DNA of 64,000 bases from Lucinisca nassula (Eukaryota; Mollusca; Bivalvia; Lucinida; Lucinidae): assembly GCA_963580285.1 (NCBI GenBank), contig OY757026.1:62373396-62437395 (forward strand), written 5' to 3'. The translations under genes were made by a program, and so were the position numbers. Of this stretch, positions 13,402-52,484 are shown piece by piece. Positions within the stretch are counted from its first letter, which is position 1; each line of letters starts with the position of its first letter. Under the pieces are notes generated by a model, which was not told the origin of the DNA, did not search any database, and saw nothing but the letters and a program-made list of their open reading frames with translations.

Positions 13402-13657
13402 CACTACAGCTATTGTCTGGGAATGTGTGGCGGCCGTAAAAAGTCTCCCTGCCATACATCATAGCGTAATTTATACTTTCTTGTCCTTTGGGATCATTGA
13501 TTCCATTGTGGAATTTTGAAAATATTTAAGGGGCACTGATGAGGCCTAATTGGCCGAAACTAGCTAGTCTGGCCCAGCAAAACATGTACACTCCATATTT
13601 TCCATTTCTGTGTTGTATTCTTTGCTTCCAAAGGCTAACCCTGTCTAGAATATATTT
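13402..13657 (+). mobile_element. Hammerhead-bearing retroelement, about one unit
   Basis: Starts near CACTACAGCT and ends TCTAGAATATATTT. It contains the same ordered blocks as the tandem copy at 35,270-35,660 (GGGAATGTGTGGCGGC, CTTGTCCTTTGGGATCATTG, ATTCCATTGTGGAATTTTGA, then the ribozyme, then TTGCTTCCAAAGG). Length is about one 261-bp unit, with the ribozyme in the middle, so the copy is permuted relative to the cleavage site. No protein is encoded. Confidence 0.8.
13530..13575 (+). ncRNA. Type I hammerhead ribozyme motif
   Basis: Stem I 5' strand GGGGCA (13,530-13,535); core CTGATGA; stem II GGCC with loop TAATT and GGCC; core GAAA (13,556-13,559); stem III ACT/AGT closed by AGCT; predicted cleavage after C13,569; stem I 3' strand TGGCCC. 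All invariant core positions are present. Stem I has one G-G mismatch compared with the 35,274 copy. Confidence 0.82.
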
Positions 13658-13767
13658 ATAACAAAAATAATGACAATAATCATTACAATATTGATAATTA
13701 TAAATGCAAGTTGTTTAACTCCCGGCAAATAAATAAAAAAGGTTAACTTTGGAAGCAATTTTATAAG

Positions 13768-34436: not shown

Positions 34437-35269
34437 ATGGATTTAAAACACAAAATAATACAATTGAATTGTTGAGGTCTTAAATCAAATTATAATGAAC
34501 CTTTATTACTTATTTCTTTATTAAACCCATCGGTTTTTTGTTTGCAAGAAACTTTTTTAAAAACTAATGACAACATTGATGTCAGGGGTTTCAATACATA
34601 TAACTATATCTATTCTGATGGTAACAAACCATCTGGTGGCAGTTCAATTTTTGTTAAATCATGTTTACCACAAAGAGAGATCAAATTAAAAACAGACCTA
34701 CAAGCTGTAGCAGTATCGGTTTCTCTGCATAAAGAATCTACAATTTGCTCTCTATATATCCCACCCTCATTTTCTTTAAAACCCGAACATCTTGAATCAT
34801 TGCTGGATCAACTTCCGTCGCCAAATCTGTTAGTTGGCGACCTCAATGGTCACAACATTCTATGGGGTTGCAAATATAACAACAACAGAGGAGTACTTAT
34901 TGACGATTTTATTGCAGGGAATGATCTTTGTTTGATGAATGATAAATCTTATACTTATCTTCACCCTGCAACAGGTTATTTATCTTCTTTAGATCTCTCT
35001 TTGTGTCACCCATCCCTCTTCTTAGACTATGGCTGGTATATTCATGATGGAAAATGAATAAGGCCAACTGGGAATTATTCCATAATTTGTGTGAACAAGA
35101 GTTATAAATTGATCACTTTAATGGATCATCTGACATTGTTTCTGATTTCACCGATACACTTATTGATATATCAGAACAATGCATTCTAAAGACCTCCACA
35201 AATACTAAGACAAACAAGCCTTGGTTTAATAATGACTGTAAAGAAGCTATTCAAATGCGCAAACAGGCA
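34437..35269 (+). pseudogene. I-type LINE ORF2, endonuclease domain
   Basis: ATG at 34,437 gives MDLKHKIIQLNC then a TGA where related elements have Arg, then LKSN. Endonuclease motifs follow: VFCLQETFLK, NLLVGDLNGHNILWG, SSLDLSLC. The segment that should carry the terminal SDH motif is lost after YGWYIHDGK (stop at 35,055). A linker to the RT (KPWFNNDCKEAIQMRKQA) runs up to the hammerhead insertion at 35,270. Confidence 0.86.
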
Positions 35270-35273
35270 CTGA

Positions 35274-35319
35274 GGGTCACTGATGAGGCCTAATTGGCCG
35301 AAACTAGCTAGTCTGGCCC
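35274..35319 (+). ncRNA. Type I hammerhead ribozyme, complete core
   Basis: Stem I GGGTCA (35,274-35,279) with TGGCCC (35,314-35,319), one G-U pair. Core CTGATGA (35,280-35,286). Stem II GGCC, loop TAATT, GGCC. Core GAAA (35,300-35,303). Stem III ACT, loop AGCT, AGT. Cleavage is predicted after C35,313. The ten bases ACTAGCTAGT form a perfect palindrome, so two molecules could share a 10-bp stem III, as in dimeric hammerheads with short stem III. Confidence 0.9.
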
Positions 35320-35534
35320 AGAAAACATATACACTCCATATTTTTCAGTTCTGTGGTGTATTCCTTGCTTCCAAAGGATAACCCTTTTATAGAACATATT
35401 TAACTTCACTACAGCTGGTGTGTGGGAATGTGTGGCGGCGGTAAAACGTCTCCCTGCCCTACATCATAGTGTAGATTGTATTTTCTTGTCCTTTGGGATC
35501 ATTGATTCCATTGTGGAATTTTGAAAATATCTGA

Positions 35535-35580
35535 GGGTCACTGAGGAGGCCTAATTGACCGAAACTAGCTAGTCTGGCCC
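35535..35580 (+). ncRNA. Type I hammerhead ribozyme, second tandem copy
   Basis: Stem I GGGTCA/TGGCCC is intact. The core reads CTGAGGA (the change is at the tolerated N7 position). Stem II is GGCC/GACC, with one C-A mismatch. GAAA and the palindromic stem III ACTAGCTAGT are unchanged. Predicted cleavage after C35,574. Probably weaker than the first copy. Confidence 0.86.
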
Positions 35581-35660
35581 AGAAAACATATACACTCCAT
35601 ATTTTTCAGTTCTGTGGTGTATTCCTTGCTTCCATAGGATAACCCTTTTATAGAACATAT

Positions 35661-37585: not shown

Positions 37586-37769
37586 TATTTTCTTGTCCTT
37601 TGGGATCATTGATTCCATTGTGGAATTTTGAAAATATCTGAGGGTCACTGATGAGGCCTAATTGGCCGAAACTAGCTAGTCTGGCCCAGAAAATATGTAC
37701 ACTCCATATTTTTCACTTCTGTGGTGTTTTCCTTGCTTCCAAAGGATAACCCTTTTATAGAACATATTT
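37586..37769 (+). mobile_element. Hammerhead retroelement, 5'-truncated, in the RNase H region
   Basis: Runs from TATTTTCTTGTCCTTTGGG to TTTTATAGAACATATTT, about 0.7 unit, with the ribozyme inside. The related LINE at 28,320-28,380 lacks it. It shares its 3' end with the copies at 13,657, 35,660 and 51,940, but its 5' end differs. Confidence 0.85.
37642..37687 (+). ncRNA. Type I hammerhead ribozyme, complete core
   Basis: Same sequence as the 35,274 copy in all stems and core positions (GGGTCA, CTGATGA, GGCC/GGCC, GAAA, ACTAGCTAGT, C37,681, TGGCCC). Confidence 0.9.
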
Positions 37770-52017: not shown

Positions 52018-52063
52018 GGGCCAGACTAGCTAGTTTCAGTCAATTAGGCCTCATCAGTGACCC
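52018..52063 (-). ncRNA. Type I hammerhead ribozyme, weakened stem II
   Basis: Minus strand: stem I GGGTCA/TGGCCC, core CTGATGA, stem II GGCC/GACT (one mismatch, one G-U), core GAAA, palindromic stem III ACTAGCTAGT, cleavage residue C (complement of 52,024). Core positions are intact. Confidence 0.85.
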
Positions 52064-52117: not shown

Positions 52118-52484
52118 TAAGAATCTGATATGGGGTTCTGTTGTAGATGAGCGTTTCCAACCCGAGGGATGACCGTGCTGAGCGGAACCGAGGCTACGCC
52201 GAGGTTCCGTTCAGCACGGTCATCCCGAGGGTTGGAAACGCCCATCTACAACAGAACCCCATATTGGATTCTTTTTCTTGCACATCACCTCCGGTTAGTT
52301 TTGACAGCTCGCACATGAATATTGTTTACAAAATAAAAATAGTGCGGAAGTAGTTCCGGCAGTTGAATAGAATTGAAGCGTAATTATGTTAGTTGCCTGG
52401 GTCGGAACACTAGGGTCAGAACATAAATTTCTATCCCAGGGTAAAATCACGGATTTCCTTGTCTGGTGTGCCAGAAAATATAAT
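52118..52484. mobile_element. Variable-palindrome element 1
   Basis: Inserted in the hammerhead element with a likely AATATA duplication. The first part, 52,119-52,272, is one long palindrome: AAGAATC..ATATGGGG, TTCTGTTGTAGATG, CGTTTCCAACCCGAGGG, ATGACCGTGCTGAGCGGAAC, apex CGAGGCTACGCCGAGG, then the complement. The second part is shared with 53,330-53,595: GGTCAGAACATAAATTTC, TATCCCAGGGTAAAATCACG, CTTGTCTGGTGTGC. Confidence 0.8.

Follow-up and report, generated by a model that had tools for sequence, protein, structure and literature searches.

The window analysed here is a stretch of 64,000 nucleotides from the bivalve Lucinisca nassula, and it contains a LINE interrupted by a non-coding insertion of 391 bp (copy A, positions 35269−35659, forward strand). 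A search for copies of the same LINE in the genome assembly (2.93 Gb, 696 contigs) gave 927 first-look candidates, of which 40 were scored and 30 loci returned, one being the window itself; the insertion is absent from all of the 29 others. These empty sites read directly from CAGGC into TCTAAATAAG across the insertion point, with CAGGC in 28 of the 29 and CAAGC in one (L066), and the comparison with them indicates a blunt insertion, with no target deletion and a duplication of 0−2 nt. The inserted DNA consists of 1.5 copies of a 261-bp unit, which are unlike each other at 4 of 134 positions, and none of the 29 open reading frames of at least 120 aa in the window overlaps it. An insertion in a LINE was already proposed in a preliminary description of this DNA, whose bounds differ by one base, within the ambiguity of the junctions.

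Both parts of the tandem carry a motif with the layout of a type I hammerhead ribozyme, in which stem I is open and has 6 bp, stem II is a hairpin of 4 bp, and stem III is a 3-bp hairpin with four bases in its loop. The first motif (HHR1, 35274−35319, forward strand) possesses every core residue and 13 of 13 stem pairs, with cleavage predicted after C35313 (C17), and the second (HHR2, 35535−35580, same strand; predicted cleavage after C35574) has a G at N7, which the descriptor permits, and one mismatch in stem II. They lie where the preliminary description had placed them, exactly 261 bp apart, and its statement that the first is complete is borne out. Positions within the unit are given below as phases, numbered from the base that immediately follows the predicted cleavage site.

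Other copies of the unit occur in the window. Copy B (13402−13658, forward strand; hammerhead at 13530−13575) comprises 0.98 unit with 89% identity and runs from phase 94 to 89, and copy C (37582−37769, forward strand; hammerhead at 37642−37687), located in the same LINE as copy A, comprises 0.72 unit with 96% identity and runs from phase 162 to 88. Copy D (51936−52603, reverse strand; hammerhead at 52018−52063) has about 1.2 units, split by a nested insertion at 52120−52472 into phases 43−173 and 166−89. In the alignment, copies A to D have their 3′ ends at phase 88−90. Copy E (approximately 27356−27539, forward strand) is a truncated and diverged member of a second family, described below, situated in a Penelope-like open reading frame and having one core mismatch (CTAATGA). 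Finally, a retrozyme-like fragment of 25 bp (26385−26409, forward strand; 24 of 25 bases identical) lies within a LINE, in a stretch missing from other LINE copies, whose matches cover just the sequence to its left and right. The insertion nested in copy D appears by eye to contain a long inverted repeat, and retrozyme phases 166−173 are found on both of its flanks, consistent with a short target duplication. In addition, a 24-bp match to the retrozyme tail occurs at 13736−13758, just past the 3′ end of a Penelope-like copy, and is perhaps a tiny fragment of a third family.

The preliminary description had also called for a motif better than chance, which holds for the strict descriptor and does not extend to the Rfam gathering score. 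With the descriptor, perfect-core motifs number five in the window and zero in ten order-1 Markov windows, in which five motifs with one core mismatch and 40 with two occur; the loose pattern CTGANGA...GAAA...TH matches the window 21 times against 17 expected, a number not above chance. At the gathering score, Rfam returned no hits for the window. In E-value mode, the best hammerhead match of HHR1 was HH9 (17.6 bits, E 0.3), that of HHR2 was RAGATH-1 (16.7 bits, E 8.5), and that of the second family was Hammerhead_3, a type III model (20.3 bits, E 0.2), all below the hammerhead cut-offs of 48−56 bits, which are far above every score obtained. Rfam by itself therefore makes a weak case for a hammerhead, and the assignment, which is a prediction, is carried by the descriptor together with the genome copies.

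Among 147 complete motifs from family 1, the family of copy A, the core is kept in 131, and the core together with all 13 pairs in 114, and 132 of 146 stem III ten-mers are palindromic. Divergence from the family consensus (GC content 41.8%) is 1.75% in the motif and 1.30% at the 12 core sites, compared with 2.55% elsewhere in the unit. In the second family one stem II pair is changed on both sides, from C-G to T-A, and stem III is still palindromic. The covariation score of an alignment of 12 chosen rows, one of which (L016) is without stem I, was above those of all 500 shuffles. Two of five covariation measures beat nearly all shuffles, for which relatedness is also a reason, and in the same 12 rows the pair changes on both sides were matched by 332 of 500 shuffles and the further pair types by 453. 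The apparent support from covariation rests on few changes. As for folding, the isolated 46-nt motif has an alternative fold that is better than the hammerhead (−15.1 versus −13.3 kcal/mol), and the unit, folded as a circle, has a minimum free energy of −68.1 compared with −57.8 (sd 4.7) for shuffled sequences, a value reached by 3 of 200 shuffles.

Genome searches yielded 1515 first-look candidates for the 391-bp query (best 40 scored, 65 matches) and 2136 for the 261-bp query (best 40 scored, 95 matches); these counts should not be read as copy numbers, and it was the best matches that were scored. The recurrence of the ribozyme unit in tandem elsewhere, which the preliminary description had proposed as a check, was found: from 59 fetched arrays, two of which (L034 and L039) are the same locus, family 1 was examined at 58 independent places, where it forms dispersed head-to-tail arrays with between 1.1 and 8.7 or more units. 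In each of the 57 arrays whose 3′ end can be seen, that end falls at phase 84−93 (phase 86 in 13, 87 in 7, 88 in 7, 89 in 13, 90 in 10, and others in 7), a spread that includes chance matches between flank and unit; the remaining array (L038) leaves its fetched locus after 8.7 units. The 5′ ends vary from phase 2 to phase 249. Constant 3′ ends combined with scattered 5′ ends are what target-primed copying with a defined start and variable stops produces, and the fixed 3′ end argues against DNA circles opened at random, which would give none. An apparent clustering of 5′ ends at phase 130−163 (18 of 39) was discarded, as only one of 20 fell there in the next set and the first query had favoured it.

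Regarding the target, there is a slight excess of duplication and no regular one: for the 57 arrays the mean best match between flanks is 3.47 compared with 3.14 (sd 0.12) for shuffled pairings, and matches of at least 7 nt number three versus 0.5 expected. A 24-bp flank match at one locus (L026), considered as a target duplication, proved to be a tandem repeat in the target. The motif RGNCTT before the 5′ junction, picked by eye from L001−L028, a set that contains it in 10 of 27 arrays, occurred in 0 of 11, 2 of 20 (a set in which the query end favoured C after the 3′ end) and, for the second family, 5 of 20 arrays of the later sets; out of sample this amounts to 7 of 51 against a background of 3.1% (P about 0.001), and it was rejected as a general target motif and retained merely as a weak preference at a minority of sites. 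Two family 1 arrays (L012 and L027) and two of the second family (L041 and L110) lie at, or a few nucleotides from, one satellite site. The window holds a 164-bp satellite (44887−45450) whose other strand reads GGCTTATATAGGGA, which is how a site that both families occupy elsewhere looks without an insertion.

The second family was first found in L041 and L036, where a related hammerhead recurs with unit spacings of 383 and 382. Its genome search gave 976 candidates, the best 40 of which were scored, with 142 matches at 89−100% identity, and one array contains eight full units (C6:10181157−10184220). In all 20 fetched arrays the 3′ end falls at phase 62−67, in 15 of them at 65 or 66, and this phase aligns to phase 87−88 of family 1, indicating a homologous position. 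BLAST aligns just two segments between the families at a comparable level, namely the hammerhead (87.5% over 40) and a block at phase 84−188 (78% over 113 alignment columns), which in copy A lies at 35397−35501 on the forward strand and begins at the predicted copying start; the remaining segments are 46−67% identical, two of them with large gaps. The best conserved parts are thus the ribozyme and about 105 nt from the copying start. The block can form a similar long stem-loop in both families, the basal stem of which has an A-U to G-C change, this being one changed pair in two sequences whose folds are each only about 1 sd above mononucleotide shuffles. All 327 hits to the block in the examined DNA are near such a hammerhead unit, with none elsewhere, and the block may be recognised by a reverse transcriptase. 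At a further locus (L116, G000:C3:126230054−126230203) a family 2 array stops at phase 67, and family 2 sequence in a different phase follows immediately, as though an element had landed at the 3′ terminus of an earlier one.

Units are more alike within an array than between arrays. The divergence is 2.72% within arrays (165 pairs) versus 4.40% between them (10566 pairs), and 2000 shuffles of the array labels never fell below 3.88%; the nearest unit is a sibling for 70 of the 138 units having one. Units at the same position diverge by 4.30% and units at different positions by 4.45%, which is little positional signal. Each array looks as though it had been copied from one monomer, as from a circle. 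In arrays with at least four complete units, the numbers of singleton and shared variants are 3 and 0 (L008), 9 and 10 (L038), 37 and 4 (L040, in which one deletion was counted base by base), and 1 and 1 (L041). L038, with its at least 8.7 units, displays a higher-order pattern of period 4, and 10 of its 19 variants are common to several units, a sign of later DNA amplification.

Metazoan non-LTR retrozymes were defined by Cervera and de la Peña in 2020 (PMC7229834), with circles shown in coral, mussel and axolotl and with cleavage and circular RNAs published for other metazoan retrozymes. Animal retrozymes have been proposed to move via reverse transcription of small RNA circles, which may be copied into more than one unit, and the review that proposes such copying states that no conserved motif reveals the helper (PMC7761336). 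The present anatomy fits the published metazoan elements, as the preliminary description had supposed. The units carry hammerhead motifs of type I layout (five perfect-core motifs in the window and the 131 core-bearing array motifs noted above, with scores under the Rfam cut-offs), the tandem units fall in the range of 150−450 bp and occur in multiple dispersed copies (261 bp in 58 arrays; 382 or 383 bp in the second family), the GC content is low, and there is no protein-coding region. Likewise, the mussel repeats of about 350−390 bp have the type I layout, short tandem units, dispersed multiple copies, a GC content below 50% and no long open reading frame seen (PMC7229834). The differences are that the units measured here are 261 and 383 bp, that a fixed internal 3′ end and a conserved block are documented, that no regular target duplication is seen whereas the published ones are long (>4 bp) when present, and that the Lucinisca elements are known from DNA. 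In the portions of the open-licence literature on retrozymes and Penelope-like elements considered here, no fixed internal 3′ end of retrozymes was seen.

Plant LTR retrozymes are also non-autonomous and hammerhead-bearing, with a proposed circular RNA intermediate, but they possess type III hammerheads, LTRs with a primer-binding site, 4-bp duplications and units of about 700 bp (features as given in PMC7229834); the present motif is not of type III, its open stem being stem I and its stem III a 3-bp hairpin. The W-elements of Schistosoma, described as satellite-like in PMC8490949, resemble the present units in their published description, being non-coding, tandemly repeated and dispersed, and containing hammerheads. 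Scans of viral contigs and genome contigs with a hammerhead pattern gave no matches, and blastn of copy A against phages found none.

Penelope-like elements are the other relevant group. Open reading frames of Penelope-like reverse transcriptases were recognised by eye in the window, among them three (48098−49186, forward strand; 23547−24218 and 21326−21829, reverse strand); three of the pieces were scanned and gave no Pfam hit, and no GIY-YIG domain was seen after the reverse transcriptase. For one of the proteins, 7663 of 7997 scored proteins were relatives, and the two named hits among the 120 relatives listed are assemblies of Candidatus Thiodiazotropha, a symbiont of lucinid clams. In the Penelope-like element PAc, which has a hammerhead, copying starts inside the RNA at +111−118 and the hammerhead cuts at +26, the first 172 nt of the open reading frame are needed, and hammerhead mutants still inserted in vitro (PMC11167929). 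By subtraction, the start of PAc lies 85−92 nt from the cut, close to the 84−93 of family 1; the family 2 start, at 62−67 nt, implies that this distance is not a rule. An internal start after the hammerhead and a tandem arrangement are common to PAc and the retrozyme unit, which differs in lacking an open reading frame for a reverse transcriptase or endonuclease (none of at least 120 aa in copy A).

Taken together, the two families are best regarded as members of an already known kind of element that bear a clear footprint of copying; the fixed 3′ end, the second family and the additional copies in the window go beyond the preliminary description. Quite probably, they are metazoan non-LTR retrozymes in kind, non-autonomous and non-coding, and copied from a fixed internal site, presumably on circular RNA. 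A multimeric transcript would be cut by the hammerhead of each unit, and the resulting unit-length RNAs would be joined into circles. The reverse transcriptase of an autonomous element would then bind the circle at the conserved stem-loop and begin copying from a single internal position immediately 5′ of that stem-loop, 84−93 nt past the cleavage site in family 1, with priming on nicked target DNA. The enzyme may go around the template more than once, and the place where it stops would vary. An internal start, repeated rounds and a variable stop would yield insertions whose 3′ end is fixed and whose 5′ end is not, with less than one to at least eight units and, usually, no target-site duplication.

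Different accounts can be given of what the unit is. It is extremely improbable that the resemblance to a hammerhead is accidental, or the motif dead, and the element a plain SINE-like repeat: the subthreshold Rfam scores, the better alternative fold and the 33 of 147 motifs that lack the full core or a pair all suit this account, which is contradicted by the absence of perfect-core matches from ten Markov windows, by the family 2 stem II pair altered on both sides with a palindromic stem III retained, and by the lower divergence of the motif relative to the rest of the unit. Alternatively, the units might be leftover pseudo-LTRs of an autonomous Penelope-like element, since such elements bear type I hammerheads in tandem pseudo-LTRs (PMC7761336) and the window contains the reverse transcriptase frames recognised by eye. 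Yet the 300-bp flanks of the arrays contain a mixture of repeats, satellites among them, whose offsets differ, with no common body seen from the junction, and all 327 hits to the block lie near a hammerhead unit, which makes this origin very unlikely.

Other accounts concern how the arrays arise. The template could be an uncut linear multimeric transcript, on which copying would begin at the fixed internal site of any one unit and continue across several, the ribozyme being incidental to insertion. PAc, which uses unprocessed RNA in vitro and still inserts when its hammerhead is mutated (PMC11167929), offers a precedent, and a homogeneous parent array would likewise yield homogeneous daughters; but 114 of 147 motifs are intact, and a working ribozyme should leave few long multimers uncut, the position signal is small, and L008 combines six units with three variants in common and few variable sites, so this route appears rather unlikely. 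Growth of the arrays as DNA, in the manner of ordinary satellites, with unequal exchange or slippage enlarging an insertion that was short at first, would explain the period-4 structure of L038 with its variants occurring in several units, and unequal exchange also yields homogeneity within an array. As a general account it is decidedly improbable, because a constant 3′ end with varying 5′ ends, seen at 57 places, calls for an insertion process that has a defined start, L008 has three singleton and no shared variants in five complete units, and exchange by itself cannot disperse arrays.

Within the preferred reading of reverse transcription from a circular RNA, a Penelope-like element suggests itself as the helper, with about an even chance of being the right one; the junctions of the Penelope-like element in the window are too few for 3′ ends or a target motif in common with the retrozymes to be found. 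A more specific proposal, held tentatively and with slightly less than even probability, is that the retrozyme circle mimics the part of the Penelope-like RNA that is read by its reverse transcriptase, that is, the hammerhead, the internal start and the conserved stem-loop just 3′ of it, and that copying round a closed RNA produces tandem insertions with a fixed 3′ end. If so, animal retrozymes would gain the conserved motif pointing to a helper that they lack according to PMC7761336. More generally, the two families appear to preserve a genomic footprint of the reverse-transcription step, in which copying begins within a range of a few nucleotides, at a distance from the ribozyme cut and at the beginning of the conserved block, and this footprint makes the question of the helper testable on a defined RNA of 261 or 383 nt.

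Some further repeats accompany these elements in the window. The three Penelope-like reverse transcriptase frames have nearly identical ends, DSMTAPT or DSMTVPT followed by a stop. Each unit of a 98-bp satellite (18240−20365) matches some 92 bp in the 3′ region of the Penelope-like element (49232−49323), so that the satellite seems to be derived from that element. Lastly, positions 1−10970 contain a segment of about 4.5 kb in tandem, with approximately 98% identity between its copies (e.g., 1741−4976 with 6225−9463).
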